Shown here: piece by piece, positions 1 through 14,900 of the stretch
Layout of the letters: every line of letters starts with the position of its first letter
How positions within the stretch are numbered: position 1 is the first letter of the stretch
Assembly: GCA_029260555.1 (NCBI GenBank)
Contig: JAJDCZ010000043.1
Location: forward strand, 43,641-107,640
Length of the DNA stretch: 64,000 nt
Source: Phycisphaerales bacterium
GTDB lineage: Bacteria > Planctomycetota > Phycisphaerae > Phycisphaerales > UBA1924
Reading direction: 5' to 3'
Made by a program: the position numbers and the translations under genes
Notes under the pieces: generated by a model
Told to the model about the DNA's origin: nothing
Database searches by the model: none
What the model saw: the letters and a program-made list of their open reading frames with translations, nothing else

Positions 1-15
1 TGTGGGTGATTGGGC

Positions 16-828
16 ATGTCTGGGGCGATAATGGATTCAGGGTTATCAGTTGCGATTGTGTGCCGGGATAATGAGCGGACGATTGGTCGGACGCTGGAGT
101 CTGTGCGCGGGCTTGCTGATGAGATTGTGGCTTTGGATTCGGGATCGGTGGACGGGACGCTGGGGATACTCAAAGAGCACGGAGTGCGGGTGATTGGCAC
201 TCAGTGGCTTGGGCATGTGGCGACCAAGCAAAAAGCACTGGAAGCGTGCAAGGGTCGGTGGGTGTTGTGCCTGGACAGTGATGAATCTGTTGAGCCTGAG
301 CTGGCAGCGGCGATCAGGGCGGTGGTTGAGGGTGAGGGGGCCGATGCAATTGGGTACAGGGTGAACCGGAAGGTGTGGTATGCGGGGCGGTTTCTGGAAC
401 ATGCTTGGCAGCCTGAGTGGAGGTTGAGGCTGATTCAGCGGGGCAAGGGGCGGTGGGGCGGGCTTGATCCACATGACAAGTTGGAGATTCTGGGTGGGGG
501 TGTGGTTGGTGATCTGAAGGGTGATCTCAGGCATGATTCGTTTGTGGACATGGCTGAGCATCTGGCAAATCAGGTTCGACATGCACAGGTGATGGCAACA
601 TCACTTGCTGGTGAGGGGAGGAAAGGGGGGTATGGAAGGTTGTTGGTGTCGCCTGGGGGGGCATTTTTGAAGCAGATGGTGCTTCGGGGGGCGTGGCGGG
701 ATGGTTGGCGTGGGTGGGCTGCAGCGGGATCGACTGCCGCGGCGACGCTGATGAAACACATTTTGCTGCTCGAACGAAGCCAAGAGGAGAAGGCCGGTGG
801 TGATGAAGGAAGGGAAAAAAGGGGGTAA
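16..828 (+). CDS. Glycosyltransferase family 2 (WaaE/KdtX-like)
   Basis: Probable cytoplasmic GT-A glycosyltransferase that moves a sugar from a nucleotide-sugar donor to a surface glycan or lipid-A core acceptor. The N-terminus has the GT2 beginning (LSVAIVCRDNERTIGRTLES), then a D-S-G-S-V-D-G-T segment and a DxD-type metal motif, LDSDES, near residue 86. The C-terminal part contains the RLIQRGKGRWGG and DPHDKLE stretches typical of the lipopolysaccharide-core GT2 subgroup. About 270 residues is normal for that subgroup. The reading frame is open from a TTG at 10; ATG 16 or ATG 31 (GGGG six bases upstream) are the likelier starts. A stop at 7-9 may belong to an upstream gene outside the window. 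Acceptor and donor cannot be read from the sequence. Confidence 0.82.
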   Translation: MSGAIMDSGLSVAIVCRDNERTIGRTLESVRGLADEIVALDSGSVDGTLGILKEHGVRVIGTQWLGHVATKQKALEACKGRWVLCLDSDESVEPELAAAIRAVVEGEGADAIGYRVNRKVWYAGRFLEHAWQPEWRLRLIQRGKGRWGGLDPHDKLEILGGGVVGDLKGDLRHDSFVDMAEHLANQVRHAQVMATSLAGEGRKGGYGRLLVSPGGAFLKQMVLRGAWRDGWRGWAAAGSTAAATLMKHILLLERSQEEKAGGDEGREKRG

Positions 829-954
829 GGGGGTGTTTGGTGCTAGGATGTCAATAGGAACTACATTGTGTGGTTGATATATTGAGACTAAAAGCAGGCG
901 GACAGTCAGCTTGAACAGGAGGCTGGGGCTGGGTTGTGAGTGCACTGGGATGAT

Positions 955-986
955 CTGCGTGAAGGGCTTGTGAGCCTTTGACGCAG
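955..986 (+). promoter_or_regulatory. Hairpin in the leader of the DEAD-box helicase gene
   Basis: Arms CTGCGT-G-AAGGGCT (955-968) and AGCCTTT-G-ACGCAG (973-986) enclose the loop TGTG. That gives 13 pairs, one of them G-T, with a single G/G mismatch. There is no T-run after it, so it is not a standard terminator. It ends 33-42 bases before the helicase start codons, so it would lie in the 5' leader. Leaders of cold-inducible helicase genes are often structured; a regulatory role here is inference. Confidence 0.45.
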
Positions 987-1021
987 TTCATCTTGTTGGC
1001 TCGCATCTCGGCTTTGGCGTG

Positions 1022-2431
1022 ATGTCGATGTCGGAACAAGAAAAAAGCGTAAGTGAAAAGAGTGTGGCTGAGGCAGATGCGGGATCTGAGATTTTTGATT
1101 CCGAGTCGACCTTTGATTCGCTTGGTCTGGGTGAAGAGGTGTTGGCGGGGATTGAGGCTGCGGGATTTGAGAGGCCGACATTTATTCAGTCCAAGCTGAT
1201 ACCGGCGATCGTGTCCAAGCGAGATGTGATTGGGCAAGCCAAGACGGGGACGGGCAAGACAGCGGCGTTTGGGTTGCCTTTGCTTGAGGTTGTGGAGAAG
1301 GGGAAGAAGTTCAGCGCGATTGTGTTGGCCCCGACTCGCGAGCTGGCGATTCAGATTCGAGATGAGATCAGTTCACTGGGCAAGAAGACGGGGCTTGGGG
1401 TGACTGCGATCTATGGCGGTCAGAAGGTGAGTGTGCAGGCCAAGAAGCTGGAGCGCGGGTCTGAGATTATTGTGGGGACGCCAGGTCGTGTGATGGACAT
1501 GATCGAGCGTGGGCTGTTGGATCTGGGGAAGATTCGTTTTGCGATTCTTGATGAAGTGGACCGGATGCTGGACATTGGGTTCAGAGAGGACATTCGCCGG
1601 ATTTTGAAGAAGTGTCCCCGTGAGCGGCAGACGATCTTTGTGTCAGCGACGCTTTCAGCGGAGATTGAGAGACTTGCCAGATCGTTCATGCATGACCCGT
1701 TGAAGGTGGTGACATCGGCGGGTTCGCTTACGGTGAGTCTGGTGGATCAGTATTATCTGGCGGTGGAGCATTGGGATAAGCGGCGGTTGCTTGGGCATCT
1801 TTTGACGCATGAGGAGCCGACGCTGACGCTGGTGTTTTGCCGAATGAAGCGGACGGTGGATCAGTTGGCGCGATATTTGAATGGGAAGAATATCGAGGCG
1901 CATGCGATTCATGGCGATCTGCCACAGAGCAAGCGGAATGCGGTGATGAAGGAGTTTCGATCTGGGAAGCTGGCGGTTTTGATTGCATCTGATCTTGCGA
2001 GCCGGGGTATTGATGTTGAGGGGATTACGCATGTGGTGAATTATGATTTGCCTGATGATGTGGAGCTGTATGTGCATCGGATCGGGCGGACAGCACGGGC
2101 GGGGCGGGGTGGTGTGGCGTGGAGCTTTGTAACACCTGAACAAGGCGGGCTTTTGACGGATATTGAGAGACTTATTAATGCGGAGGTTCCCAAGCTGAAC
2201 TATCCGGATTTTGAGCCTGGGTCATTGCCTGAGGATGTCAGGAATCAGCGGGAGCGGGATGACAGGCGGCGCAGTGAGCAGCAGAACAAGCCGAACCGAC
2301 TGGCTGTGGAAACGGACCTTCCGATTCAGAAGAAGGAAAAGGTGAGTGAGCAGCAGTTTCCGGGAGGGATTGTGCCTACGAAGCAGCCACCGAAACGGAT
2401 GTTTGGCAAGGTGCGTACACGGGGGAGGTAA
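1022..2431 (+). CDS. ATP-dependent DEAD-box RNA helicase, motif II variant DEVD
   Basis: RNA helicase likely to unwind short duplexes during ribosome assembly or mRNA turnover. Motifs in order: F-x(17)-Q type Q motif (ERPTFIQSKLIPAI), Walker A AKTGTGKT near residue 75, PTRELA, TPGR, motif II LDEVD near residue 178, SAT, then helicase domain 2 with FCRMKRT, SRGIDVEGITHVVNYDLP and HRIGRTARAGR. The C-terminus is basic and low complexity (RERDDRRRSEQQNKPNR) and ends RMFGKVRTRGR, as in RhlE-like proteins. About 469 residues. Possible starts are GTG 1019, ATG 1022 and ATG 1028. Motif II reads DEVD rather than DEAD; the metal-binding D-E pair is kept. The gene has its own 190-base leader with a hairpin. 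Confidence 0.93.
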   Translation: MSMSEQEKSVSEKSVAEADAGSEIFDSESTFDSLGLGEEVLAGIEAAGFERPTFIQSKLIPAIVSKRDVIGQAKTGTGKTAAFGLPLLEVVEKGKKFSAIVLAPTRELAIQIRDEISSLGKKTGLGVTAIYGGQKVSVQAKKLERGSEIIVGTPGRVMDMIERGLLDLGKIRFAILDEVDRMLDIGFREDIRRILKKCPRERQTIFVSATLSAEIERLARSFMHDPLKVVTSAGSLTVSLVDQYYLAVEHWDKRRLLGHLLTHEEPTLTLVFCRMKRTVDQLARYLNGKNIEAHAIHGDLPQSKRNAVMKEFRSGKLAVLIASDLASRGIDVEGITHVVNYDLPDDVELYVHRIGRTARAGRGGVAWSFVTPEQGGLLTDIERLINAEVPKLNYPDFEPGSLPEDVRNQRERDDRRRSEQQNKPNRLAVETDLPIQKKEKVSEQQFPGGIVPTKQPPKRMFGKVRTRGR

Positions 2432-2486
2432 ATACGGGTTGGTTGCGTGTCCTGGGTGAGTTTTGAGAGAGCGCCAGCAGTGGGTA

Positions 2487-4013
2487 ATGAGCATGAGTGA
2501 GCCTTTGATTGTGGGTGTGAGTGGTTTGCGGGGGATTGTGGGTGAGAGCCTGTCGTTTGATGTGGCGATGCGGTATGCAGCAGCGTTTGGGACATGGCTC
2601 AAGCGTGATGGCGAAGGCGAAACGGTGGTGGTGGGGCGGGACGGGAGACATGGGGGGCTAGCGCTACAACAGGCGGTGATGGCGGGGTTGATGGGTGTGG
2701 GGTGTGATGTGGTTGATGTGGGGGTTGTGCCTACACCTACGGTGGGGGTGGTGGCTAATGAATATGGCGCAGTGGGGGTGGTGGTGACAGCGAGTCATAA
2801 CGGTCAGGCATGGAACGGCATTAAGTGTTTGTGTCGAGATGCACAAGGGTCAGATGCGATTGATGCGTTTGTTGTTTCAGCGCCGGTGAAGGGGCGGGCT
2901 GAGGAAATTATCGGGGGGTTTGAGGGCAATGAGATTGACTGGGTGAGGGGTGAGCTGGTGGGGGAGTATGAGCAATATGAGGGTGGGTGCAAGCTTCATT
3001 TGCAGTTGGTGGGCGAGGCTGTGTTTCTGGATCTGATGGATAAGGCGGGGCGGGAGAAGATGAGCGGTTTTCGAGTTGTTCTGGATTCGCTTAATGCATC
3101 TGGATCGCGGGTTGGTGGACTGCTTTTGCATGAAGCTGTGGGGCAGGTGATTCAGTTGGGTGGCGGGGCGCTGGTGGATGAATCTTTTGGTATTTTTGAG
3201 CACGAACCAGAGCCTACAGCGGAGAATCTTGCAGGTGAAGGCGGGTTGTGTGATGTGGTGGTGGGAGCCAGGGCGGATGTTGGTTTTGCACAAGACCCGG
3301 ATGCGGATCGGCTGGCGATTGTGGATGAGACGGGGCGGTATATTGGAGAGGAGTACACGCTGGTGCTGGCAGCGGAGGCACTTTTGCAACTTCGTGAAGC
3401 AGATGGTGGGGATGAGGAGATGGAGGCAGGCAGAGGGGTGATCGTTGTGAATCTTTCGACGAGTCGAATGATTGATGATGTGGCAGCGAAGTTTGGGGTG
3501 GAGGTGGTGCGGACGCCTGTGGGTGAGGCGAATGTGGTGCAGAAGATGCGCGAGCTGGGTCGCGAGGGATTTGATGTGGTGGTGGGCGGTGAGGGCAATG
3601 GGGGGGTGATATGGCCTGGGACTGGATTGGTGCGGGATTCGCTTGCGGGGATGGGGTTGGTGCTGGGGCTGATGGCAAGTACGGGGAAGACAGTGAGTGA
3701 GCTTGCGGGTGAGGTTCCTGGTTATGCGATTATGAAGCGGAAGGTGGGGATTGATTCAAAGGAGGCTGCGGAGCCTTTGGTTGAGGCGGTGGCGGAGCAT
3801 TTTCGTGAGATGGGCCGGGTGTTGGAGGGGGCGAAGATCGAGATTGATCGGCAGGATGGAGTTCGTGTTGATCTGGTGGAGCAGAAGGCGTGGCTTCATG
3901 TTCGGGCGAGCAATACCGAGTCGATTGTGCGACTGATTGCAGAGGCGCAGACGCAAGAGGATGCAGAGGCGCTCCTGGAGATGGTGGAGGAGTTGATTCG
4001 TGAGAAGGCCTGA
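2487..4013 (+). CDS. glmM: Phosphoglucosamine / phosphohexose mutase (alpha-D-phosphohexomutase family)
   Basis: Interconverts hexose 6-phosphate and 1-phosphate, most likely glucosamine-6-phosphate for UDP-GlcNAc and cell-wall precursor supply. The phosphoserine loop TASHNG is present with Ser103 as the phosphorylated residue. The metal loop is DPDADR (Asp270, Asp272, Asp274), the sugar-specificity loop is GGEGNGGVIWP, and the C-terminal phosphate-binding loop is RASNTES. The last differs from the usual RxSxTEP by having Ser for Pro. 508 residues is slightly long for GlmM. The frame is open from a TTG at 2463, but ATG 2487 or 2493 gives the normal family N-terminus (EPLIVGVSGLRGIVGE). GlmM versus phosphomannomutase cannot be settled by eye, so the symbol is tentative. 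Confidence 0.8.
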   Translation: MSMSEPLIVGVSGLRGIVGESLSFDVAMRYAAAFGTWLKRDGEGETVVVGRDGRHGGLALQQAVMAGLMGVGCDVVDVGVVPTPTVGVVANEYGAVGVVVTASHNGQAWNGIKCLCRDAQGSDAIDAFVVSAPVKGRAEEIIGGFEGNEIDWVRGELVGEYEQYEGGCKLHLQLVGEAVFLDLMDKAGREKMSGFRVVLDSLNASGSRVGGLLLHEAVGQVIQLGGGALVDESFGIFEHEPEPTAENLAGEGGLCDVVVGARADVGFAQDPDADRLAIVDETGRYIGEEYTLVLAAEALLQLREADGGDEEMEAGRGVIVVNLSTSRMIDDVAAKFGVEVVRTPVGEANVVQKMRELGREGFDVVVGGEGNGGVIWPGTGLVRDSLAGMGLVLGLMASTGKTVSELAGEVPGYAIMKRKVGIDSKEAAEPLVEAVAEHFREMGRVLEGAKIEIDRQDGVRVDLVEQKAWLHVRASNTESIVRLIAEAQTQEDAEALLEMVEELIREKA

Positions 4014-4052
4014 GTGGGTCAGGTGCAGAGTTGCTGGGGTATACTAAAAACG

Positions 4053-4337
4053 ATGGCGATACAAAGCGAACAAATCAAGGTTGGTCAGCGGGTTCGAGTC
4101 ACACAGCAGATTCCCAGGCAATCCGGGGCGTTGCTTACGACGATCGAGGGGTGTGTTGTGGGGTTTGGTCAGGAAAAGACCGGGTCGTGGTTTGCACATA
4201 GCAAGGATCACAAGCTTTGGCTTGATCGGCTGGAGATTCGCAAGGACGATGGCGAGCTGGTGGTTTGTAATCTGGATCGGTATTCACATATTGAAGCTCT
4301 GGGGGATAGTGGGGACGGTGAGGGTGGCGGGGCGTAG
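4053..4337 (+). CDS. Small hypothetical protein, beta-rich
   Basis: A 94-residue protein of unknown function. It begins MAIQSEQIKVGQRVRVTQQI, which reads like a short SH3-like or KOW-like barrel: a VGQRVRVTQQIP strand, a central EGCVVGFGQEKTGSWFA segment and a charged WLDRLEIRKDDGELV segment. The tail DSGDGEGGGA is acidic and flexible. It has no signal peptide or membrane segment. The reading frame stays open back to a GTG at 4014, adjacent to the stop of the mutase gene, but ATG 4053 gives the better-formed N-terminus. It is the last gene before the terminator at 4363 and so probably shares a transcript with the mutase gene. Confidence 0.6.
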   Translation: MAIQSEQIKVGQRVRVTQQIPRQSGALLTTIEGCVVGFGQEKTGSWFAHSKDHKLWLDRLEIRKDDGELVVCNLDRYSHIEALGDSGDGEGGGA

Positions 4338-4362
4338 TTTGTGGTTTGAGGTGAGTTGATGG

Positions 4363-4389
4363 CCGGGCCTGAATGGGTCCGGTTTTTTT
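4363..4389 (+). terminator. Intrinsic terminator after the mutase / small-protein genes
   Basis: Stem CCGGGCC (4363-4369) pairs with GGTCCGG (4376-4382) around a six-base loop, with one G-T pair, and is followed by seven Ts (4383-4389). It separates the housekeeping genes upstream from the virion-like cassette. Confidence 0.85.
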
Positions 4390-4623
4390 GTTGGTACAGG
4401 GGTTATGCGCATGGGTGGGCGCGCACAAGGGGTGGTGTCTGAAAAAGGCGAATTTTTTTAGTTGAGTGCAGTTACACGGTTTGGGTGTTTGAGCCAGATG
4501 GTGTGGTGGGTGTTGTGCGCGCATTGGGGGTTGGGCGGGCGAGGGGTGTAAGTGTCGTGTGTGTTGCACGGGGCTGAACGAGGATGGGCGAAGGGTTGAT
4601 GCTCGCATCACAGGGGAATGGTT
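4390..4623. other. Intergenic leader of the virion-like cassette
   Basis: A 234-base stretch between the terminator and the portal gene. It holds no convincing reading frame. I see no clean -35/-10 pair; the only A/T-rich island is near 4440-4475. The cassette should have its own promoter here because the terminator isolates it from upstream transcription. Confidence 0.4.
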
Positions 4624-6114
4624 ATGTCTTATAGGCTGGAGATTTTTTCGGATGTGGGCCTGGATGAGGCACTCTTGAAACTCCTGATTGATGGGCATGA
4701 GTCAGGGGTGATTCCCAAGTTGAACAAGTGGTGGTCGTATTACAGGAATCCGCTTGGGCTGGGGAACAGAACGGTTGGAGGTGGTCAACAGGCTCAGGAG
4801 AAGGGGTTGCCTGAACGATTGACGGGTGTGAATGAATCTGGCGTGAGGCGTGAGGTTGTGATTGAAAATGACATTGCCTGGCGGTTGCACACGATGGTTG
4901 ATTTCATGTTTGGCAAGCCGGTGTTGATTGTGAGTACGGCTGAGGATGAGCAAAGGCGGCGGGTGATCGAGAAACTTCTGGATGCGGTGTGGGAAGCGTC
5001 TGGGGGTATTGGGTTGCTTCAGGACATGGCGCTTCTTGGTCATGTGTATGGGTATGTGGACCTGCTGGTTCGGGTGGAGGGGTTGGTTGAGCTTGAGGGA
5101 GACGGGATTGGGTTTGGCGATGAGTTGAGTGACGAGCGGATTCGCGAGATTGCGCGCGCGATCAGGATTGAGGTGGTGGAGCCGACGCGGTGTGTGCCTT
5201 TGGTGAACAGTCTGGATTACCGGGGGCTTGATGCGTATGTGGTTCACTTTGATCGCGAGCTGAATCAAGTTGAGCGGAGCGTGGGGGGAGTGGGGAGTGT
5301 GATTGGGAGGTTGTTGCGGGGCGGTGATGCGGGTGGGGCTCGTCGCCGGTCATCAGTGACGGAGGTCTGGTCGGGATCGGCGTGGCAGGTGTATGAGGGT
5401 GAGGAACTGGTTGGTGAGGGGTTGAACCGGTATTTGGCGGGTCATGTGCCTGTGGTGCATATCCAGAATCTATCGCAGCCGTTTCGTTATGAGGGGCTGG
5501 GCGAGGTTGAGCAGTTGGTGTGTTTGCAGGATGAGTTGAACACGAGGTTGAGCGATCGGGCGAGTCGAGTGACGATGCAGTCGTTCAAGATGTATCTGGC
5601 CCGCGGGGTGGAGGGGTTTGAGCGAGTTCCGGTGGGACCTGGTCAGGTGTGGTCGACGGACAATCCTGATGCGCGGATTGAGTCGTTTGGTGGAGATGCG
5701 GAATCGCCAAGTGAGGAGTCGCATATTCGGGAGATTCGTGAGGCGATGGACAAGGTTTCGAGTGTGCCGCCGTTGGCGAGCGGGGTGGTGAGGGCGCGGA
5801 TTGGGAACTTGTCGAGTGCGACGGCGTTGAAGGTGACGCTGATGGGGATTTTGTCAAAGACAGCGCGGAAGCGTGTGACTTATGGCAGGGGGATTGTGGG
5901 GGCGAGCGAGATGGTTTTGATGGCGCTGGATGCAGCGGGTGTGTTTCAGACGGATGTGGGAGAGCGGGGGTTGCGACTGGCTTGGCCTGATCCGTTGCCA
6001 ACAGATGAGCGGGATCAGGTGTTTGCAGCGCGGGCGAAGCAGGATCTTGGTGTGCCTGTAGAGCGGGTGCTGGCGGAGCTGGGATATGCACCGAGTGATC
6101 CCGGGGTGATGTAA
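4624..6114 (+). CDS. Phage portal protein (SPP1 gp6-like)
   Basis: Portal subunit: in phages a dodecamer at one capsid vertex that serves as the DNA entry and exit channel and nucleates capsid assembly. The N-terminal region around GVIPKLNKWWSYYRNPLGLG and ENDIAWRLHTMVDFMFGKPV is typical of SPP1-type portals. The clip/stem region reads LSQPFRYEGLGEVEQLVCLQ-DELNTRLSDRASRV. The C-terminal wing contains SSATALKVTLMGILSKTARK, strongly characteristic of the family. 496 residues is normal. ATG 4624 is preferred because AGGGG (4612-4616) lies seven bases upstream; an in-frame ATG at 4618 is too close. The gene opens the cassette, where a terminase large subunit would normally come first. Its codon use resembles the neighbouring housekeeping genes. 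Confidence 0.85.
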   Translation: MSYRLEIFSDVGLDEALLKLLIDGHESGVIPKLNKWWSYYRNPLGLGNRTVGGGQQAQEKGLPERLTGVNESGVRREVVIENDIAWRLHTMVDFMFGKPVLIVSTAEDEQRRRVIEKLLDAVWEASGGIGLLQDMALLGHVYGYVDLLVRVEGLVELEGDGIGFGDELSDERIREIARAIRIEVVEPTRCVPLVNSLDYRGLDAYVVHFDRELNQVERSVGGVGSVIGRLLRGGDAGGARRRSSVTEVWSGSAWQVYEGEELVGEGLNRYLAGHVPVVHIQNLSQPFRYEGLGEVEQLVCLQDELNTRLSDRASRVTMQSFKMYLARGVEGFERVPVGPGQVWSTDNPDARIESFGGDAESPSEESHIREIREAMDKVSSVPPLASGVVRARIGNLSSATALKVTLMGILSKTARKRVTYGRGIVGASEMVLMALDAAGVFQTDVGERGLRLAWPDPLPTDERDQVFAARAKQDLGVPVERVLAELGYAPSDPGVM

Positions 6115-6143
6115 GTGAGGCTGGTTTTAGAAAGGGGGCGATG

Positions 6144-6674
6144 ATGCCTGGTGGATTTAGTGGTGGCGGCGGAGTGGGTGGATCAGGTGAACCCAATGCG
6201 GCAGAAGCGGGCAAGGACCTGGTTGTGAGTGATGAGATTGTGTGGAGGAACCGGGCGCTTGAAGCGGAGCAGCGTGTGGAGGAGTTGGAGCAGGATCTTG
6301 GGACTTGTCGTGAGACGCTGGAGCAGGCACGCGAGACGATTGACGCTGCGGAGTTGAGCAGGCAGATTGAGCGAGAGCTTGTGAAGGCGGAAGCGATTGA
6401 TCTTGAGACAGCGATGATGCTGACAGAGGCTGCGGTTTTGGAGATGGACGAGCCTGATGTTCAGAGTGTGGTGCGAGAGCTTCGCAAGCGGAAGGCATTT
6501 TTGTTCAAAGGCTCGACAGGTGGCTCGCGGGGGCGAGGGGGCAGAGTATCGGCGATGAGCAGTGTGGTGCAGGATGGTGATGCAGAGGAGAGGGCGCTGG
6601 CAGCGTTTGCCAGGAGCAGCGGAGATCGATCGGCGTTACTCAGGTATATGAGGCTGCGCCGGAGTGGTGGATGA
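6144..6674 (+). CDS. Coiled-coil protein, probable capsid scaffold
   Basis: A 176-residue protein between portal and capsid genes, the usual place for a scaffolding protein. The glycine-rich N-terminus (FSGGGGVGGSG) is followed by a long predicted helix rich in E, Q and R at about residues 35-95 (ALEAEQRVEELEQDLGTCRE and onwards). A short charged C-terminal region ends RYMRLRRSGG; scaffold proteins often bind the capsid protein through a basic C-terminal helix. AGGGGG ends five bases before ATG 6144, so that start is preferred over ATG 6141. No protease motif is seen. The scaffold role is inferred from position and coiled-coil character. Confidence 0.55.
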   Translation: MPGGFSGGGGVGGSGEPNAAEAGKDLVVSDEIVWRNRALEAEQRVEELEQDLGTCRETLEQARETIDAAELSRQIERELVKAEAIDLETAMMLTEAAVLEMDEPDVQSVVRELRKRKAFLFKGSTGGSRGRGGRVSAMSSVVQDGDAEERALAAFARSSGDRSALLRYMRLRRSGG

Positions 6675-6732
6675 GTGTTGTTTGTGTGTGGATTGAACAA
6701 GTTGAAGTTAATGAACTGAAAAGGGGGTTCTG

Positions 6733-7905
6733 ATGGCGTTTACGGGTAAGGCGACATATGACGCGGGTGCGGGTTTGCCGGAGCTGGTTGAGGATGTTTC
6801 GGACATTGTGGGGATTGTGAGTCCGTTTGAGACGGCGCTCCTGGATCATTTTGGGGATTCCAAGCAGCCGGCGTTTGGAACGGTGCATGAATGGATTGAG
6901 GATGCGCTGCTGCCCAACTTTGATCACATCAATCAGACGGTATTTAATCCTGATCCGCAGACAGAGACGGACCTGACGATGGACAATGCGGGTCGATTCC
7001 GGGTTGGTGACCAGGTGCAGCCTGAGGGCACGGGCGAGGTGATGCTGGTGACGGCGGTGGGTGGATCGAGCATCACGGTGCAGCGCGGGTATGGAGGGAC
7101 GACAGCGGCGACGGTGGCGGACAACATGAAGCTGAACATTCTGGGTAATGCAGCGATGGAAGGCGCGAATGCTGATTCAGCCAGGTTTACGAGTCGATCG
7201 CGCAAACAGAACTACACGCAGATTTTTACAGCGACGGTGAGCGTGAGCGGTTCGATGCAGGCGTCTCGGGCATACGGGATTGCAGACGAGGTTGATTATC
7301 AGAAACAGGAACGCATGCGCGAGTTGTTGCGGGATCTGGAAAACTGCATGATCAACGGGGTTGCGCCAGTGAGTAATCAGCAGGGCTCGTCAACGGTTCG
7401 TCGATCAATGAACGGGATTATTCAGTCGATTGCGACCAATCGGTTTGTGCCTGGTGCAGGCGGGATTCCGGTGGGAGATGGCGCGGGGTCTGATGGGCTT
7501 AATGAAGCGGTGCTGAATGCGGCGCTGAGGCTGATCTGGGATCAGTCATCAGGTGGAGTGGACACGATTGTTGTGGGCGGGTTGCAGAAGCGGAAGATCA
7601 ACTCGTTTATCAGCTCGTCAAGGGCGTATGCGCCGGAGGACACAAAGTTTCAGGATCTGGTGAGTGTGTATGAGAGTGACTTTGGGGTGTGCCGGGTTGT
7701 GATGAGTCGGTGGGTGCCTGCGGATACGGTGCTTTTGATTGACAGCTCGCGTGTGCAGGCGATGCCTTTGACGGGCAGGAGCTTTGGATTCAAGAAGCTT
7801 GCATCGACGGGTGATTCAGTTGAGGGCCAGGTGGTTGGTGAGTACACGCTGGAGTTCAAGAACGAGAATGCGCATGGGCTGATTTCAGGTCTTGCAACTG
7901 CGTAA
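6733..7905 (+). CDS. Major capsid protein, SU10 / DUF5309-like (HK97 fold expected)
   Basis: 390-residue protein matching the SU10-type (DUF5309) major capsid proteins. It begins with a short arm and then DVSDIVGIVSPFETALLDHF. An inserted beta domain (GEVMLVTAVGGSSITVQRGY) is followed by SRSRKQNYTQIFTATVSVSG, EVDYQKQERMRELLRDLENC and the SSTVRRSMNGIIQSI segment. The C-terminal half ends with LEFKNENAHGLISGLA. The strong ribosome-binding site AAGGGGG lies five bases upstream, consistent with high expression. It should form the shell together with the portal and the scaffold-like protein. Encapsulins lack a portal partner, so that alternative is less likely. The frame is intact, without internal stops. 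Confidence 0.87.
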   Translation: MAFTGKATYDAGAGLPELVEDVSDIVGIVSPFETALLDHFGDSKQPAFGTVHEWIEDALLPNFDHINQTVFNPDPQTETDLTMDNAGRFRVGDQVQPEGTGEVMLVTAVGGSSITVQRGYGGTTAATVADNMKLNILGNAAMEGANADSARFTSRSRKQNYTQIFTATVSVSGSMQASRAYGIADEVDYQKQERMRELLRDLENCMINGVAPVSNQQGSSTVRRSMNGIIQSIATNRFVPGAGGIPVGDGAGSDGLNEAVLNAALRLIWDQSSGGVDTIVVGGLQKRKINSFISSSRAYAPEDTKFQDLVSVYESDFGVCRVVMSRWVPADTVLLIDSSRVQAMPLTGRSFGFKKLASTGDSVEGQVVGEYTLEFKNENAHGLISGLATA

Positions 7906-7930
7906 GAGGGTATTGGCGGCGTGGACCCGG

Positions 7931-7991
7931 GAGCCTGGGGGTGGCTCGGGGATGGCGCTTGTCGCTTGCTGGCGCGTGAGAGCGTGCCAGC
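7931..7991 (+). promoter_or_regulatory. Two intercistronic hairpins after the capsid gene
   Basis: The first hairpin is GAGCC (7931-7935) with GGCTC (7943-7947). The second is GCTGGCGCG (7968-7976) with CGTGCCAGC (7983-7991), nine pairs including one G-T and a six-base loop. Neither has a T-run. They fill the largest gap inside the cassette and could protect the capsid message from 3' decay or lower expression of the genes that follow. Confidence 0.5.
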
Positions 7992-8030
7992 GGGTTTGGA
8001 TGGAATAAAGATCATGATTGGGGGTGCGGG

Positions 8031-8675
8031 ATGTTTGTAAGTGATCGGGATTTGCTGGTGGTTGAGCCGAACTTGTTTCGGGATGTGGTGTGGGTGGGTC
8101 AGAAGCTTGGTGAATCAGCTTCGGCGACGGTTGCGGGGACGACGCTGACGATGACGGGGATAGATGTTGATCTGGATCAGTCGGGCGTTGGGGCGGGGCA
8201 TGTGGCGGTGGTGGATGGGGTGGGGTATGAGGTGATAGCTCGACTTGGGATTGACAGCGCGACGATTTCGCGGGTTCGGTTGACGGATCAGGATGCGGTG
8301 ATTGTGCCTAGCCCGGTGGCGGGGGTGCGGGCGTTTGTGATGACATTTGGGCCGATGATGGCGGTGGTGCATCGGCGGATTTTGCTGATGCTTGGGATTG
8401 ATCCTGATGGGGCGGTTGAGGATTCGTTGAGTGAGTCGAGCATTGTAAATCCAAAGGCGTTGAGATTGGTGGAGGTGTTTGGGACGCTGCACATGGTGTA
8501 TTCAGCAGCGTCGGTGCTGGGTGGGCCTGAGTCGTCATATGGTCAGCGGGCCGAGGTGTATCGGAGGCTGTTCTGCCAGGAACGAGGGCGGGTGTGGGTT
8601 CGGATGGATATTGATGGCGATGGGGTGGCGGATTCAACACGGCGGTTGAATGCTGCGATGCTGGAGCGGGGGTGA
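8031..8675 (+). CDS. Cassette protein, possible head-tail connector
   Basis: 214-residue protein directly after the capsid gene. It starts FVSDRDLLVVEPNLFRDVVW and has a beta-rich N-terminal half of about 100 residues built around short repeats of the form GTTLTMTG and VAVVDGVGYEVIARLG. The C-terminal half (FGTLHMVYSAASVLGGPESS, then YRRLFCQERGRVWVRMDIDGDG) is more helical. Its place between capsid and small tail-like genes suggests a head-completion or connector subunit, but I do not recognise the family. A GGGGGTG ribosome-binding sequence precedes ATG 8031. The stop is three bases before the next start, so translation is probably coupled. Confidence 0.5.
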   Translation: MFVSDRDLLVVEPNLFRDVVWVGQKLGESASATVAGTTLTMTGIDVDLDQSGVGAGHVAVVDGVGYEVIARLGIDSATISRVRLTDQDAVIVPSPVAGVRAFVMTFGPMMAVVHRRILLMLGIDPDGAVEDSLSESSIVNPKALRLVEVFGTLHMVYSAASVLGGPESSYGQRAEVYRRLFCQERGRVWVRMDIDGDGVADSTRRLNAAMLERG

Positions 8676-8678
8676 GCG

Positions 8679-9122
8679 ATGCTGGTGTTGAATCCGAGGC
8701 GGGTGTGGCTTGATGGCAAGCGGATTGAAAGTGTGAGTGTGATCGTGGTTGATCGCAAGGGTCAGAAGGTGGTGCTGGAGTGGTCGGACTTTGGGCCATA
8801 TGCGGTGATGGGGGATGTTGTTGAGCAGCGCGTGACGATTCGGTTGGTGCATGGGCTTGATGAAGATGCGCTGGATGTGCCAAAGCCTGGCGATGAGATG
8901 CTGCTGGAGTTTTATGTTTCAAACGGGACCAGTGAGGCGCAGCGGAGCAAGGCGTCTGCCCGTGTGGTGGTGACGGAGGTTCGTCACGAACTTTCACAGG
9001 CCAAGGGTGCTTTGCGGACGATTGTGATGGAGGCGATTGATGCGTTTGATAATGCCAGCAGTAGCGGGGCGAACGATCCGATCGTGATTGTGAATGATGC
9101 TGGCGCTGGGGTTGGGGTTTGA
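8679..9122 (+). CDS. Cassette protein of unknown function
   Basis: 147-residue mostly beta protein. It begins MLVLNPRRVWLDGKRIESVS, with VVLEWSDFGPYAVMGDVVEQ next and a VPKPGDEMLLEFYVSNGTSE stretch before an ARVVVTEVRHELSQAKGALR strand region. It ends in an A/G/V-rich tail. The small beta-barrel look and its place suggest a neck or tail-tube-like subunit, but this is inference. The start codon is three bases after the previous stop. No signal peptide or membrane helix is present. Confidence 0.5.
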   Translation: MLVLNPRRVWLDGKRIESVSVIVVDRKGQKVVLEWSDFGPYAVMGDVVEQRVTIRLVHGLDEDALDVPKPGDEMLLEFYVSNGTSEAQRSKASARVVVTEVRHELSQAKGALRTIVMEAIDAFDNASSSGANDPIVIVNDAGAGVGV

Positions 9123-9148
9123 ATGGAGCGATGCTGGGGGGATAGAAG

Positions 9149-9526
9149 ATGAGCAGTTCGTACAAGTCGCTGGATATTTTCGGGTCTGGGCCTCATCGGT
9201 TTTCGCTGGGCAAGGAGGGGCTGTATGTTGTGTCCAATGCTGCTGTGGCTGGGCCGACGGTGCCCGGGTCGTTGGCGTATGGGCTTTTGGAGCTTGATGT
9301 GGTGGTGACGGGGCGTCTGGTGGCGGCGAGTGAGGCTGCGTTGTGGACGATTCGTGATGCGGTGACGGCGTTGCTGGTGCAGCCTCAGACCGAGGGGGTT
9401 TTGGTGGATCATCACGGACGGACCTGGACGGGGATGAAGTTTATTCGCTTTGAAACGGCGGATCTGGTAGATCGAGGGCGCGTGGTGTCGGTGGGATACA
9501 CCGCGATTTTCCGGGATCAGTTGTAG
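9149..9526 (+). CDS. Cassette protein, tail-completion-like
   Basis: 125-residue protein. It starts MSSSYKSLDIFGSGPHRFSL and contains LDVVVTGRLVAASEAALWTI, RDAVTALLVQPQTEGVLVDH and RFETADLVDRGRVVSVGYTA. The pattern of a terminal beta strand, a helix of the form AALWTIRDAVTALL and a final strand pair resembles small phage tail-terminator or baseplate proteins, and length and position fit. No family is recognised with certainty. A GGGGGG-type ribosome-binding sequence lies about eight bases before ATG 9149. Confidence 0.5.
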   Translation: MSSSYKSLDIFGSGPHRFSLGKEGLYVVSNAAVAGPTVPGSLAYGLLELDVVVTGRLVAASEAALWTIRDAVTALLVQPQTEGVLVDHHGRTWTGMKFIRFETADLVDRGRVVSVGYTAIFRDQL

Positions 9527-9558
9527 TGTGGGTTTGATTGGCGTGTGGATGGGGGTGA

Positions 9559-9840
9559 ATGATGCCTGAGGTAGAGGTTGCGGGATTGGTGGCGCAGTTT
9601 GGTGTAGCGGGGTTGATTGGGTGGATGTGGCTTACAGAGCGGCGCAGTGCACTGAGTCGGGAGAAGCAGCTTAACGAGGCTCATGAGCAGGTGATTGATC
9701 AGAAGCAGGAGATCAGCGTACTGGTGGATGTGGTTAAGGCCAACACTCGGGCGGTGACCGCACTTGAAGCAGGACAAAGGCGGTTGATGGATATGATCGA
9801 GGGAAAGATGGTGCAGGTTGATCGTGTCGAGGGTGGGTGA
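9559..9840 (+). CDS. Small membrane-anchored coiled-coil protein (holin-like or anchor)
   Basis: 93-residue protein. A hydrophobic segment at about residues 8-26 (VAGLVAQFGVAGLIGWMWL) is followed by a charged helix with heptad spacing (RREKQLNEAHEQVIDQK-like) to the end. Such one-helix-plus-coil proteins occur at the end of phage structural modules, where some act as holin or spanin partners. With only one membrane segment it is not a classical two- or three-helix holin. It could instead hold particles at the membrane. ATG 9559 and ATG 9562 are both possible after GGGGGTG. It is the last gene of the cassette. Confidence 0.5.
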   Translation: MMPEVEVAGLVAQFGVAGLIGWMWLTERRSALSREKQLNEAHEQVIDQKQEISVLVDVVKANTRAVTALEAGQRRLMDMIEGKMVQVDRVEGG

Positions 9841-9903
9841 TGCGTCAAGCTAAAGTCGAGTACCATAACACAGCGATCACAAAGACCATGACAGACAAAG
9901 GCG

Positions 9904-10512
9904 ATGTGGATGAGCACCCGTTTACACAAACAACAAAGAATCATGACAGCACTTGGGAGTGTGCTGATGGTTGCAGGGCTGGCGGGTTGTGCTTCGAGTG
10001 GCTCTTCAGGAAACGAAGTTGGGTATCAAGGCTCTAACAAAAGCGGTGTTGAGCGCGGGTTGCTGGTCAGTCCGTTTGTTCCAGACTCGATTCGTGTGCA
10101 CCCTCTGACGCGGGCTGTGCGAGGTGATGGTAAGGTGGGGGGTGGGGGATGGCTGATTGTGTTGCATGTTGAGGTTGCGGATGCGTGGGGGGATCCGGTG
10201 AAGGCACTGGGATCGCTGCGTATTGAGTTGACTGATGAGACAAGCGGGCAGAGTGGGGGTGATCAGAGGCTGGTTTGGCCGATTGATCTGAGTGAGCCGG
10301 GCGCGAACTCTGCAGCGTATGACCCGGTGACGGGTGCGTATCGGATTCAGCTTGCAGGGCTTGAGGGCTGGTTTGATGGAGCTGACGGAAGTGTTGGTGG
10401 CCGATATCGACTGCGCGTTGTGTTTAAAACGATCAATGCACAGGGCAAGGTTGTGTATCTGCGCGATGATTATGGGCTGCGGGTTTCAGCAGCTCAGCTT
10501 GAGGATAAGTAA
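9904..10512 (+). CDS. Lipoprotein of unknown function
   Basis: 202-residue exported lipoprotein. The signal region runs from a short basic start to MVAGLAGC, a good lipobox with Cys29, followed by a Ser/Gly-rich spacer. The mature part is beta-rich and contains GGGWLIVLHVEVADAWGDPV, then ALGSLRIELTDETSGQSGGD and YRLRVVFKTINAQGKVVYLR, similar in style to planctomycete envelope lipoproteins. No enzyme motif is seen. It starts 63 bases after the virion-like cassette on the same strand, so it could be co-transcribed or simply adjacent. It converges closely on the amidohydrolase-like gene, with only 11 bases between the stops. Confidence 0.7.
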   Translation: MWMSTRLHKQQRIMTALGSVLMVAGLAGCASSGSSGNEVGYQGSNKSGVERGLLVSPFVPDSIRVHPLTRAVRGDGKVGGGGWLIVLHVEVADAWGDPVKALGSLRIELTDETSGQSGGDQRLVWPIDLSEPGANSAAYDPVTGAYRIQLAGLEGWFDGADGSVGGRYRLRVVFKTINAQGKVVYLRDDYGLRVSAAQLEDK

Positions 10513-10523
10513 CACGGGTGAAG

Positions 10524-11882
10524 CTAGTTGTTGTCGGGGAGCATGTTGAGCTGACGATAGCGCTCACGGTATTTTTCATTGAGTTTGGTTTGTTTGTTGG
10601 ACAGGTCAATGTATTTGCCATCGATCAGGGCGTGATTGATGTGGGTGGTGATTTGGAGGGGGTTGCCTGTGGTTACGATGAGCGTGGCGGCTTTGCCTGG
10701 TTCGATGGAGCCGAGCGTTTCGTCGATGTTGAGGATTTGCGCTGCCCAGAGTGTGATTGATTTGAGTGCGAGGGCGGGGTCCAGGCCATAGGCTGCTGCG
10801 GTGGCGGCGCTGTGGCGCAAGCCTCGTTCGTGTGCGGTTCTTTCGCCGCTGGCCAGGCACCAGCGAATGCCTGCATTCTGGAGGCGAAGGGGAAGTGTGA
10901 ACGCTTCGTCATATGGTGAGTCTGCTCGTTTGGGGAAGCGGTGGGTGCCGGTGATGATGACGGGAACATCATGTTCAATGAGGAGTGTGGCGGCTTGGGG
11001 CGCATCGCGGCCGCCGACGATGACGGGCTGGAGTTTGCGCCCGATTGCCCAGGTTACAGCGGAAGTGATCTGATCGATGTCATTTGCATTGATGAAGACG
11101 GGATTTTGAGAATCAGCGCCGGGCAGAATGTTGAGCATGGACTGATAGCGAATGTCGATGGGAGTTGCAGGATCAGCCTTGCGGGCCAGGGCGTAAAGCT
11201 CAGCAGCGTCAAAGAATGTGTTGATTTTTGCGAGGCGTTCCTTGATCTGTTTTTTTTGTTCAGATTCGGTGCGGTTCATCCACCAGTCATGAACAGGACG
11301 GACACTGGGCCAGTTGATGACCAGGCCAGCATCAGGTTTGATCGCAAGGTCTTCGGTGGTCCATCCATCCATGCGGATGATGGAGGCTCTGCCGGGGATG
11401 GTGCCTCCGGTTGGGATGACGCCGACGGTGAGGATGCCTGCGGATCTGGTGACGGGGATGACGGTTGAATCAGGATTGATGGCAACGGATGCACGAACTT
11501 CGGGTGTGAACTGACCGACTTCATCACGATCTCTGGTGGAGCGCACAGCAGCGATTTCAATAAGCCCGGTGCCTGTTATAGCACCGATGAGTCCTGGGTA
11601 GACATGCAAGCCTGAAGCCTTGATGATCTGCATGCCGGGTGCGGGTTTGAAGGAATCAGCTGAGTTATCCTGGCCGACAGCAGTGATGATGCCTTGATCG
11701 AAAGTTACGAAGCTGTTGGAGTAGTTGTCGCCTGAGATGGTGTGGATGGTGGCGCCGATAATGGCGATGGGATGATTCTGTGGCGGAGCTTTGTGCGTCA
11801 GATCTTGCGCTTGAGTGCTGATTGAAGCCAGTGAGATGAGACTGACGGTGAATGAAGCAAGGAATGTTCTGGTAATGGTCAT
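10524..11882 (-). CDS. Exported amidohydrolase-fold protein lacking the first metal motif
   Basis: 452-residue secreted or periplasmic protein with a signal peptide (TRTFLASFTVSLISLASIST, then QAQ). The amidohydrolase superfamily layout is visible: the beta-sandwich start IAIIGATIHTISG, LHVYPGLIG, and near the end GLDPALALKSITLWAAQILN, SIEPGKAATLIV and ALIDGKYIDLS. The canonical PGLID-x-HxH is changed to PGLIGAITGTG, so two metal ligands are missing and hydrolysis by the usual mechanism is doubtful. The frame is open to 11981, but the ATG at 11882 begins the signal peptide. It lies 56 bases downstream of the double-domain paralogue and probably shares its transcript. Confidence 0.78.
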   Translation of the reverse strand: MTITRTFLASFTVSLISLASISTQAQDLTHKAPPQNHPIAIIGATIHTISGDNYSNSFVTFDQGIITAVGQDNSADSFKPAPGMQIIKASGLHVYPGLIGAITGTGLIEIAAVRSTRDRDEVGQFTPEVRASVAINPDSTVIPVTRSAGILTVGVIPTGGTIPGRASIIRMDGWTTEDLAIKPDAGLVINWPSVRPVHDWWMNRTESEQKKQIKERLAKINTFFDAAELYALARKADPATPIDIRYQSMLNILPGADSQNPVFINANDIDQITSAVTWAIGRKLQPVIVGGRDAPQAATLLIEHDVPVIITGTHRFPKRADSPYDEAFTLPLRLQNAGIRWCLASGERTAHERGLRHSAATAAAYGLDPALALKSITLWAAQILNIDETLGSIEPGKAATLIVTTGNPLQITTHINHALIDGKYIDLSNKQTKLNEKYRERYRQLNMLPDNN

Positions 11883-11938
11883 GGCAGGTGGCCTGTAATT
11901 GTCAAGAGGTGTCCGGGCGAGTTGGATGGATGCTGGGA

Positions 11939-14900
11939 TCAGTGATTGATGATTGAGAGATTGGTGTCGCACTGGCTGCAATCAAGCGAATCGGTGGGTT
12001 GATTGTTGAGGTATCGCTGCATCATGGTTTTGCGGACCTGATCAGCGATGAAATATTGTTCAGGAGTTTTGTCATCGTTGGACTCGGGTTCTGTTTCTTT
12101 GTCCTCGTCGTCAGAGTCGCTCTTTGTTGGTTTCTTTTGAGCAAGGAGTTTCTGGATGATGCGTTGTCTTTCAGCGGTGATTTGCTGGCGGAAGGCGGCA
12201 TCGCGCTGGAGAGAAAAATATTCTCTGCCATCGATCCAGGTTGCGGTGCAGCGGGAGAGAGTTGAAAGCGGGTCACCAGACCAGATTGCAAGGTCTGCAT
12301 CTTTGCCGACTTCCAGGGAGCCTGCAGATTTGTCGATGCCGAGTTGAATGGCGGGGTTGATGGTGACGAATTTGAGTGCTTCAGAGGGGTTGAGCCCGCC
12401 ATAGGCGACGGCTTTGGCAGCTTCGGAGTTCATGCGTCTTGCCAGTTCATCTGAATCAGAGTTGAAGCTGACGACGACGCCGACATCGTGCATGATGGCG
12501 CCGTTGTAGGGGATGGCATCAACCACTTCAAACTTGTATGCCCACCAGTCGCTGAAGGATGAGGCTCCGATGGCGGTTTCCTTGATGATGTCAGCGACTT
12601 TGTAGCCTTCAAGAATGTGCTGAAATGTTCCGATTTTGAAACCGAAGCTCTGGGCGACTCTGGCCAGCATGAGGATTTCATCCTGTCGGTAGCTGTGGCA
12701 ATGGATGAGGCGATCGCCTGAAAGAATCTGGGCGAGGATGTCAAGTTCAAGATCACGCCGGGGTTCGTCGAGTGTTGCGATGCGCTTGTTCTGTTCTTGC
12801 GTAGTAATGCGCAGGCGGCGAATAGACTGGACAATATCTTCATACTCTGCGCGAGCTTTGGCGTATGCACGGGCCGCGGTGAAGCGGTCAAGATAAAAAG
12901 ATTCAACGCCCATGCGGGTTTGTGGGTAGCGAGTGGTGAAGCGAGAGCCCCAGTTTGATTGCTTGACATTTTCACCGAGTGCGAACTTGATGCCTGGCTT
13001 GGCGTTCTGGAAGCGCATGTCATTGGGGTTTGAGACACCCCAGCGGACTTTATGGGTTTGGCTTTGGCCACCGACGGGGTTGGCTGAGCCATGCAGGGAG
13101 TTGACGGTGGTGATGCCTCCAGCGAGCTGGCGGTACCAGTTGATGTGGTCGGGGTCGATGTCGTCAGCGATGCGGACTTCTGCGGTGGAAGCCTGGGTGC
13201 CTTCGTTGACGCCTGCAGCAAAGAGGCCGGTGTGGCTGTGAGCATCGATGAGACCCGGTGTGATGTGAGCACCGTTCAGATCGATTGTGACGGGATCGTG
13301 CTTGGTCATGACATCGATTGGGCCGGTGCCCAAGGCGATGATTTTTCCTTCTTCGATGACGATCCAGTCATTGTTGATGATGTTGTCCGGGCTGCTGGTC
13401 CAGATGGTGGCGTTGGTGAAGATAACGGTTTGCTGCTCGGGGATGGAAGGCGAAGCGTATGGGCCGAAGGGATAGCCTGGCAGGTCTTCGGGCGGGAGGT
13501 CGTCGTTATCAGCTTCATCAATATTCTGGTCAGCGGTGTTTTTGTCAGCAGCAACAATGGGCTGATCGCGTGTGGCGGTCCACTGGAAGGAATGACCATC
13601 GGGCGAGATGCCGGTGCCTATGAGTTTGTTGTTGGTGAATACGCCTGACAAGGTATATGAACCTTTGGAATCATCCTCATCGTCGATGAGAAAGCTCACG
13701 GTGTTGGCATCGAGCTTGACCTTGCGGGCTTTGCCTTTGGTTTCTTCTTCTTGAGTTTTAATGGTATTGCCATCGAACACAAGAGCCATGGAAAAGTTCT
13801 CGCCAACGCGAAGGGTCCATGCGCCATCGAGCTTTGGTCCTGGTGCCGGGTTAATTTCATAACGGCGGCCCTGGATCCAGACATCGCGGATTTTGGTGTC
13901 TTTGTCAAAGAGAGGTCCATCTGCAACGACGAGGCTTGCAGCCTTGTTGACTTCAACGGTGCCTAGCGTTTCGTCGATGCCAAGCATCTCAGCGGGGGTG
14001 ATTGTGAGCATCGCAAGAGCGTCTGGCTCACTTAGACCAACCTTGATAGCACGGCGAAGGTTGTCCATGAATGATTGTTTTTTGGGCAGCTTGCCAGTTG
14101 TGATCGCGACGGTCAGGCCTGCATCGATGAGCCTGTAGGGATTGGTGGGTGCCTGTTCCCAGGTCATCAGTGTGCGCAGGTCAACAGCATCAGCACGCCC
14201 CACGGTGGAAACATCTGGCTTTGCTGGAAAGCGCAGGGGGAGAATGATGGGGGTGTTGGTCTGGGCGATGGCATCGAGTCTGCGGAACTCCATGCCTGAG
14301 CCGAGGATGATGACAGAACGGCTGGTTTCTTTGCCTATCTCGGTAGCGCGGAGCACTTCGAGTTCATTTTTGACATCAAACACGAGAGGGAGCTTTGCGC
14401 CCGTGCTGTCAGTGAGTGTGTCCAGTGCGTTTTGGGGCAGTTGGGGGTTGCGACCATGAGCGCGAGCTTGCCACTGGGCGTCCATCAGTGTTTGCCGGAC
14501 CAGTGCGATTGCGCCCATGAGTGATGAGGGGTAAGCCTGGTCGAGGCTTGGTGATCGGCTTCCTCTTTCAAAGGCCAACGCGTGGTAGGCACGATCTTTG
14601 TAAATCACGGGTGCCTGGGCGCTGGAAGTTTCAGCGGGATCAGAAAGGGAGATAATCGCGGAGGTGCCTTTGAAGATGCCATCCCTGGGTGCAATGGCTG
14701 CAGCGACGAAACCCATTTTGCGGAGCGACTGGGCTTTGGTTTTGTCAAGGCCTGCACCAAGAAGTGCAGAGCGGCTGGGATGGACCTTGGAGTTCCAGTG
14801 TTGTGTGAGATGATCGCTATAAGGCGTGTCAGCATCAACGGGAACCCAGGCATCGATGAGACCCGGGTAGATGTGCAAGCCTGATGCGTTGTGGAGCTGA

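Follow-up and report, generated by a model that had tools for sequence, protein, structure and literature searches.

A capsid gene cassette and a distant terminase operon of Phycisphaerales as a probable gene transfer agent

According to PMC9662315, gene transfer agents (GTAs) are defined by six features: particle proteins that derive from caudoviruses and resemble those of tailed phages, for which protein similarity is accepted as evidence; full endogenisation, often at multiple loci; mostly vertical inheritance, the agent diversifying along with its host; a content of mostly random host DNA; incomplete packaging of the agent's own genome; and delivery of the DNA to other cells. The groups classified there are two in the Alphaproteobacteria and one in the spirochaetes, and functional GTAs are also mentioned in a sulfate-reducing deltaproteobacterium and in a methanogen. 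Here we analyze a cassette of seven phage-type genes in a stretch of 64,000 nucleotides (the window) from a Phycisphaerales bacterium (assembly GCA_029260555.1, contig JAJDCZ010000043.1, positions 43,641 to 107,640 of the forward strand; the contig is called C43 below). Together with a terminase operon located elsewhere in the genome, the cassette is best explained as a GTA, i.e. a phage-derived, chromosomal and host-inherited system predicted to package host DNA and to deliver it to related cells, a reading to which we assign a probability of about 0.68. The literature search brought up no GTA described from Planctomycetota or Phycisphaerae, within a scope that leaves most subscription journals and all preprints outside.

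The cassette spans positions 4618-9840 of the window and consists of seven intact open reading frames (ORFs) in the same direction, as stated in the preliminary description of this DNA. Genes were called with a codon-usage caller, which gives approximate starts, and genes that it leaves uncalled drop out of the neighbourhood counts. The cassette genes, including a likely eighth, are:

4618..6114, + strand: portal protein, SPP1 gp6-like, 498 residues (PF05133, E 5e-10; phrog_64, E 5e-14)
6141..6674, + strand: scaffold-like coiled protein, 177 residues (PF06810, E 4e-5, under the Pfam cut-off; phrog_194, E 0.006)
6733..7905, + strand: major capsid protein, SU10 type, 390 residues (PF17236, E 8e-84; phrog_1328, E 2e-72)
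8031..8675, + strand: gene 4, 214 residues, probable head-tail adaptor (position only)
8679..9122, + strand: gene 5, 147 residues, tail-tube-like (predicted fold)
9149..9526, + strand: gene 6, 125 residues, Dit-like distal tail (tail-tip) protein (predicted fold)
9559..9840, + strand: gene 7, 93 residues, hydrophobic N-terminal segment and coil, holin-like (PHROG matches of relatives)
9943..10512, + strand: lipoprotein, likely cassette gene 8 (a further ATG lies upstream at 9904)

Family profiles bear out the portal and the SU10-type capsid protein named in the preliminary description, while the scaffold-like protein does find its family, but under the Pfam cut-off. Concerning the three small proteins that had been taken as connector- or tail-like, genes 5 and 6 show predicted folds of tail type, but gene 4 yields no informative family in Pfam and PHROG searches and gives mainly short calcium-binding-motif matches when compared by sequence with the PDB, its probable assignment as head-tail adaptor coming from its position alone. 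The same comparison with the PDB returns no useful match for gene 5, for the portal or for the terminase described below. Relatives of gene 7 match phrog_1625 in 8 and phrog_2429 in 6 of 31 cases (best E 3e-5), families that we take to be BhlA/UviB and holin-like, and 3 of the 31 match the Rz-like spanin family phrog_89. Since relatives of gene 7 resemble phrog_1625/2429 proteins, the earlier claim that lysis genes are missing becomes doubtful. The absence of a composition break holds, the cassette having a GC content of 0.56-0.58 against 0.55-0.57 ahead of it.

The capsid protein was used to search the genome_contigs collection, which gave 97 relatives, 80 of them retained; most of the genomes compared throughout are metagenome assemblies. 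The titles of the retained records carry Planctomycetota or Phycisphaer- names, except for one Planctomycetaceae and two cyanobacterial names, these two being taken as mislabelled. The order of the detected same-strand cassette genes is identical in 80/80 loci, and all seven genes are recovered by tblastn in 34 of the 48 loci whose capsid gene is unsplit and that offer space for the complete cassette. Counting the window itself, tblastn matches per 81 loci are 61 for the scaffold and 74 for gene 4. Within the family of the source genome the capsid gene is nearly universal (135 of 150 genomes, 104 of the 107 of good quality and 68 of 74 genera), and it is found in 172 of the 397 genomes of the class Phycisphaerae as well as in 52 of the 392 genomes of a phylum sample, 23 of these 52 belonging to other classes. 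Family genomes usually show one capsid match; where a second is listed, it is either part of a capsid gene that is split or broken, or comes from a remote paralogue (31-34% identity). Sequence identity decreases with kinship: full-length matches listed share about 56-74% within the family and 53-64% elsewhere in the class, and most of those listed at phylum level share 49-55%.

All cassette genes evolve under purifying constraint as measured by the ratio of nonsynonymous to synonymous rates (dN/dS; Nei-Gojobori method, protein identity of 70% or more and dS of 0.1-2 per pair, duplicate sequences removed), the per-gene analysis that the preliminary description had proposed. Medians are 0.164 for the portal (34 pairs), 0.235 for the scaffold (13), 0.200 for the capsid protein (355), 0.155 for gene 4 (19), 0.234 for gene 5 (12), 0.196 for gene 6 (18) and 0.165 for gene 7 (22), i.e. 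0.155-0.235 over the cassette, with 0.159 for the lipoprotein (16) and 0.196 for the terminase (20). No pair exceeds 0.52 and all medians lie far under 1.

It had been noted that no terminase accompanies the portal, and a search for an unlinked large subunit had been suggested. Whole-genome searches with phrog_2 (large terminase) indeed give no match on C43, but they retrieve one strong match on another contig, C50 (E 1e-16); a second match, on contig C3, is marginal. The C50 locus, studied in a stretch labelled L084, adjoins a gene recognised as nuoG and contains:

C50 71322-72812 (L084 9320-10813): large terminase, 497 residues, PF17289
L084 11075-12421: ABC-ATPase with a GNAT-like part, 448 residues, between the helix-turn-helix (HTH) gene and the terminase
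L084, beside the ABC-ATPase/GNAT gene: HTH protein with a sigma region 4-like domain, 121 residues
L084, divergent from the HTH-ABC/GNAT-terminase operon: CI/LexA-type repressor, 306 residues, PF01381 (HTH_3) and PF00717 (Peptidase_S24)

This corrects the earlier statement that a repressor is missing, which concerned the window. Among 12 terminase stretches from relatives with long contigs, 11 show the HTH gene near the terminase and 9 show matches to both the HTH protein and the repressor. The ABC-ATPase/GNAT protein is encoded by a single gene in some genomes and by two in others.

The terminase is present in 140 of the 150 family genomes (102 of the 107 good ones), and its distribution over the class follows that of the capsid gene: out of 397 genomes, 163 have both, 9 the capsid gene alone, 35 the terminase alone and 190 neither (cut-offs E 1e-3 for the capsid protein and E 1e-10 for the terminase; species are counted though they are not independent). 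Within the family itself this comparison carries little signal, both genes being near-universal there; leaving it out, the corresponding numbers are 119, 9, 35 and 190. The two genes are physically distant in the family: where the matches listed share a contig, as they do in 38 of its genomes, a median of 60 kb (range 12-350 kb) separates their starts. In the rest of the class the distance ranges from 2.5 kb to 1.1 Mb among the 27 same-contig genomes listed, 6 of which have the two within 11 kb. The closest pair, in another family, leaves about 1 kb between capsid and terminase genes (G231:C106:9956-13576), perhaps the ancestral arrangement. Four single-contig genomes (G036, G066, G106 and G108) hold both loci, with the capsid gene split in G036 and frameshifted in G106.

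Key terminase residues are strictly conserved, Walker A, Walker B and the nuclease aspartates being identical in 37/37 distinct sequences. Cysteines 244, 250, 253 and 259 are likewise present in all 37 sequences and could bind a metal.

To compare the inheritance of both loci with that of the host, maximum-likelihood trees of capsid protein, terminase and RpoB were obtained for 29 family genomes (G037, with no RpoB match, was left out). The trees contain 13, 13 and 14 splits with bootstrap of at least 95, respectively, of which 12 are common to capsid and RpoB, 10 to terminase and RpoB and 10 to capsid and terminase, with 0 supported conflicts. Distance correlations agree (capsid-RpoB 0.56, 0/2000 permutations as high; capsid-terminase 0.39, 0; terminase-RpoB 0.37, 3/2000). 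Within the family, the two distant loci follow the host tree.

Taken against the definition given above, three of the six features of PMC9662315, those accessible to sequence, are found here: caudovirus-derived proteins (portal, SU10 capsid and terminase families together with tail-tube and Dit folds), endogenisation at several loci (the cassette on C43 and the terminase operon on C50) and vertical inheritance in the 29 genomes. A GTA is thereby likely, not proven. Given the split over distant loci, it is also likely that the system's own genome would not be fully packaged. The domesticated, GTA-like particle maintained by selection that the preliminary description put forward is thus supported by gene order, dN/dS, terminase co-occurrence and congruence with RpoB.

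Concerning regulation, the repressor matches lambda CI, and its domains together with an A-G site, Ser and Lys present in 10/10 aligned sequences place it in the LexA/CI-type self-cleaving S24 class, so that cleavage is predicted. A GTTC-N10-GAAC palindrome lies between the repressor and HTH genes in 7 of 13 genomes, against 0.8 expected from shuffles with all gaps tried, the motif having first been spotted in some of these 13 genomes and then counted. One operator common to both loci was also considered and rejected, no enrichment being found ahead of the portal. As the palindrome is enriched beside the repressor gene and not ahead of the portal, the repressor likely acts on its own operon; for the structural cassette, the HTH protein is the obvious candidate for an activator.

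A working cycle can be proposed from these components. DNA damage would lead to RecA-aided self-cleavage of the repressor, as the A-G, Ser and Lys residues and the operator-like palindrome suggest. This would release the divergent operon, whose gene order (HTH, ABC-ATPase/GNAT, terminase) is observed. Portal, scaffold and SU10-type capsid protein would then form a procapsid, into which the terminase would load host DNA through the portal, probably without sequence specificity; the components of this step are observed and the packaging is predicted. Gene 4 would close the head, genes 5 and 6 would build a short tail, in line with their predicted folds, and the particle would finally leave the cell through the action of the holin-like gene 7 and the lipoprotein.

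Several observations weigh against the GTA interpretation. It is known from genes alone, the particle, the packaging and the transfer being predicted. The distribution is patchy, with 225 of 397 class genomes lacking the capsid gene, and the terminase occurs alone in 35, some of these at weak E-values. Damage is also seen: one locus (L077) has lost portal, scaffold and the capsid N-terminus, another (L165) has a frameshifted capsid gene, a few capsid genes contain an internal stop, and 17 of the 135 family genomes with a capsid gene have it split, the main match beginning at residue 45-57. The preliminary description had proposed looking for the same order and flanks in relatives, and while the order is colinear in 80/80 loci, shared flanks are partial, with pgm preceding the portal in 23 of 52 loci; the chromosomal slot is common to only part of the family. 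Ahead of the portal a palindrome is found in 6 of 59 loci against 3.1 expected, none with the N10 gap, so that the palindrome does not account for control of the cassette. Neither a tape measure nor a fibre or endolysin gene was seen in linkage with the cassette, the family searches for these three functions covering one tape-measure family, PF10145. Finally, a more sensitive alignment query finds relatives on 6 of 2.9 million predicted viral contigs, three at full length with 56-62% identity and three at 39-46%.

The rival that survives best, which we nevertheless regard as unlikely, is a domesticated DNA-packaging particle with another role, such as killing relatives, public-benefit lysis or DNA storage. 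With no tail fibre or tape measure seen in the own-family cassette, delivery could be weak or lost. Among genes recurring with the cassette in the family, none was recognised as tape measure or fibre, and C43 has no match to PF10145, in agreement with the earlier claim. Other families have more: in 7 of 16 of their loci read by eye (L166, L167, L171, L174, L175, L177 and L179) the block of portal, scaffold, capsid and gene 4 is followed by a longer operon with extra tail-like genes, and lectin-like (Laminin_G_3) proteins occur in both of these loci that were scanned; the database names of the other tail proteins there are weak and were set aside. The source family thus has a reduced tail form, or further parts sit elsewhere. 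Against a role without delivery stand the portal, the motif-intact terminase and the tail-tube and Dit-like genes, all at dN/dS far under 1.

The source genome does contain two PF10145 matches of TP901 type, in ORFs that the gene caller had not called, within two related prophage-like regions:

C3 184000-203900 (L188): prophage-like region with PF10145 tape measure and phrog_4523 capsid
C7 88000-102562 (L190): prophage-like region with PF10145 tape measure and phrog_4523 capsid

The capsid genes match phrog_4523 with E 2e-73 and 4e-73, and one region has a major tail protein (phrog_1407). We do not count these tape measures among the parts of the cassette, from which both regions are apparently separate, the capsids there being of another family.

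Recurrent prophages, or remnants of one phage group infecting Phycisphaerae, would account for the phage-like components, for the few relatives on predicted viral contigs, for the longer versions with more tail genes in other families and for the terminase beside the capsid gene in G231. This origin is nonetheless improbable in view of the near-universal presence in the family, the order common to 80/80 loci, the congruence of both loci with RpoB and the low dN/dS. C43 moreover lacks matches to the two main integrase families (PF00589, tyrosine integrase, and PF07508, large serine recombinase), as the preliminary description had it for the window, both families being present elsewhere in the genome; with neither of these integrases nor a terminase on C43, the usual signs of a prophage were not found, att sites not having been systematically sought. 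Relatives in phage records are remote: in 50,697 records there are 311 capsid matches, all under 60% identity, the 20 listed ranging from 24.5 to 32.3%. Single-sequence scans of the 2.9 million predicted viral contigs gave no relative of the capsid protein or the terminase and one of the portal. One of the 6 contigs from the alignment query (IMGVR_UViG_3300031673_016560, labelled both L229 and L232) carries the longer cassette with type I restriction- and radical-SAM-like genes upstream, and may be a chromosomal piece. A recent or decaying prophage, in particular, is rejected on the grounds of conservation, tree congruence and dN/dS.

A similarly small chance goes to a vertically inherited defective prophage retained for immunity to related phages or satellites. 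A CI-type repressor conserved beside the terminase, and mobile elements that target the capsid gene, agree with such a function, but immunity would not need the joint selection seen on portal, scaffold, tail and terminase genes. An empty capsid or a nanocompartment with cellular cargo, both offered in the preliminary description, is the least probable explanation: the capsid gene is detected in more loci than any other (82, the remaining six genes being at 57-75, with some genomes contributing more than one locus), but portal, tail-type genes and packaging ATPase are conserved alongside it and no recurring cargo gene was recognised in the neighbour-gene clusters.

The split capsid genes deserve separate treatment. 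An N-terminal capsid piece is found elsewhere in at least 13 of the 17 split genomes among the matches listed, and in 7 of them the matches listed place it on the contig and strand of the main match, some 10.5-11 kb upstream. Three loci (L158, about 2860 to 13780, L159 and L160) show an element of about 10.5-11 kb in the capsid gene, and G308 (L176) probably carries it too. When the flanks of the element in L158 and L159 are joined, capsid frames of about 390 residues result; several 2-base cores close to W-I-E-D (residues 54-57 in the capsid protein of the window) permit this, the exact core being ambiguous. In L160 joining the flanks yielded no long capsid frame. The L158 element encodes a large serine integrase (phrog_95, E 5e-90), a primase-helicase, a sigma factor-like protein, a methyltransferase and a protease-capsid fusion (phrog_4523, E 9e-69); among those of its genes that were scanned, neither a portal nor a terminase could be recognised. 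Protease-capsid genes related to this one are present in 9 loci, including at least two pairs that represent one contig each, and the capsids of the two prophage-like regions belong to the same family (37% identity for the one compared). The element looks mobile, with the particle's capsid gene as attachment site; it is perhaps a satellite and possibly a parasite of the particle. Extending the GTA interpretation in this direction, one may tentatively imagine an ancient, independent GTA of Phycisphaerae and beyond, divided into a structural cassette and a packaging operon under SOS control, with a dedicated serine-integrase parasite that would silence or replace the shell and borrow portal, terminase and tail; as a whole this scenario is doubtful.

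Around the cassette, two further features lie 5' of the portal:

4053..4337, + strand: small conserved neighbour, 94 residues, frequently 5' of the portal, perhaps a host gene
4361..4384, + strand: terminator-like hairpin 5' of the cassette (pattern match only)

The 94-residue neighbour has tblastn matches in 35 of the 81 loci and no informative Pfam or PHROG family. The hairpin, which the preliminary description took as the upstream boundary, does exist, but it is weak evidence because such sites are rarer in the region (2) than in shuffled versions of it (4.5 expected). The lipoprotein gene had been taken as the other boundary; since it lies within 1 kb 3' of gene 7 in 34 of the 47 loci with space to show it, it is probably a cassette member instead. 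An amidohydrolase gene is found downstream of gene 7 in 28 of 47 loci. It can also be observed that positions 1-15000 of the window show a strong excess of G over C on the + strand (maximum skew 0.48), which goes down to -0.24 around 32-34 kb.

If true, a class-wide Planctomycetota GTA would represent a further domestication, retained across many families, and likely a gene-exchange route for a phylum with little known genetics. More generally, a capsid cassette that lacks a terminase need not be a remnant, as the packaging enzyme may be located at another locus and can be found by phylogenetic co-occurrence. The capsid-gene element, in turn, offers a testable case of a parasite of a domesticated particle.

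Among known systems, RcGTA and the RcGTA-like agents of Alphaproteobacteria (Rhodogtaviriformidae) are alike in their caudovirus-derived parts, chromosomal location, frequent distribution over several loci and host-congruent inheritance (PMC9662315). The genes of the three classified groups are described in the same source as non-homologous or too divergent for BLASTP, and the capsid lineage found here is probably different from that of RcGTA, judging from the sequence profile: compared with the PDB, the capsid profile reaches 9ny2, 9in6 and 7z45 and no RcGTA chain at E 0.01. We take 7z45 to be phage SU10. The RcGTA terminase is located in the RcGTA main cluster, whereas the terminase of the family studied here lies apart from portal and capsid genes and has a CI/LexA-type repressor and an ABC/GNAT ATPase as neighbours. 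BaGTA of Bartonella and BhGTA of Brachyspira are, similarly, independent domestications of tailed phages; they belong to other phyla. SU10-like tailed phages share the capsid family PF17236 at the 24.5-32.3% identity of the 20 matches listed, but they are free, whereas here the genes are chromosomal, co-inherited with the host and split between loci in the source family. Finally, the element found in relatives, with its serine integrase, primase, protease-capsid fusion, sigma factor-like protein and methyltransferase, resembles capsid-encoding phage satellites of cf-PICI type, with the difference that here a domesticated particle would take the place of the target phage.

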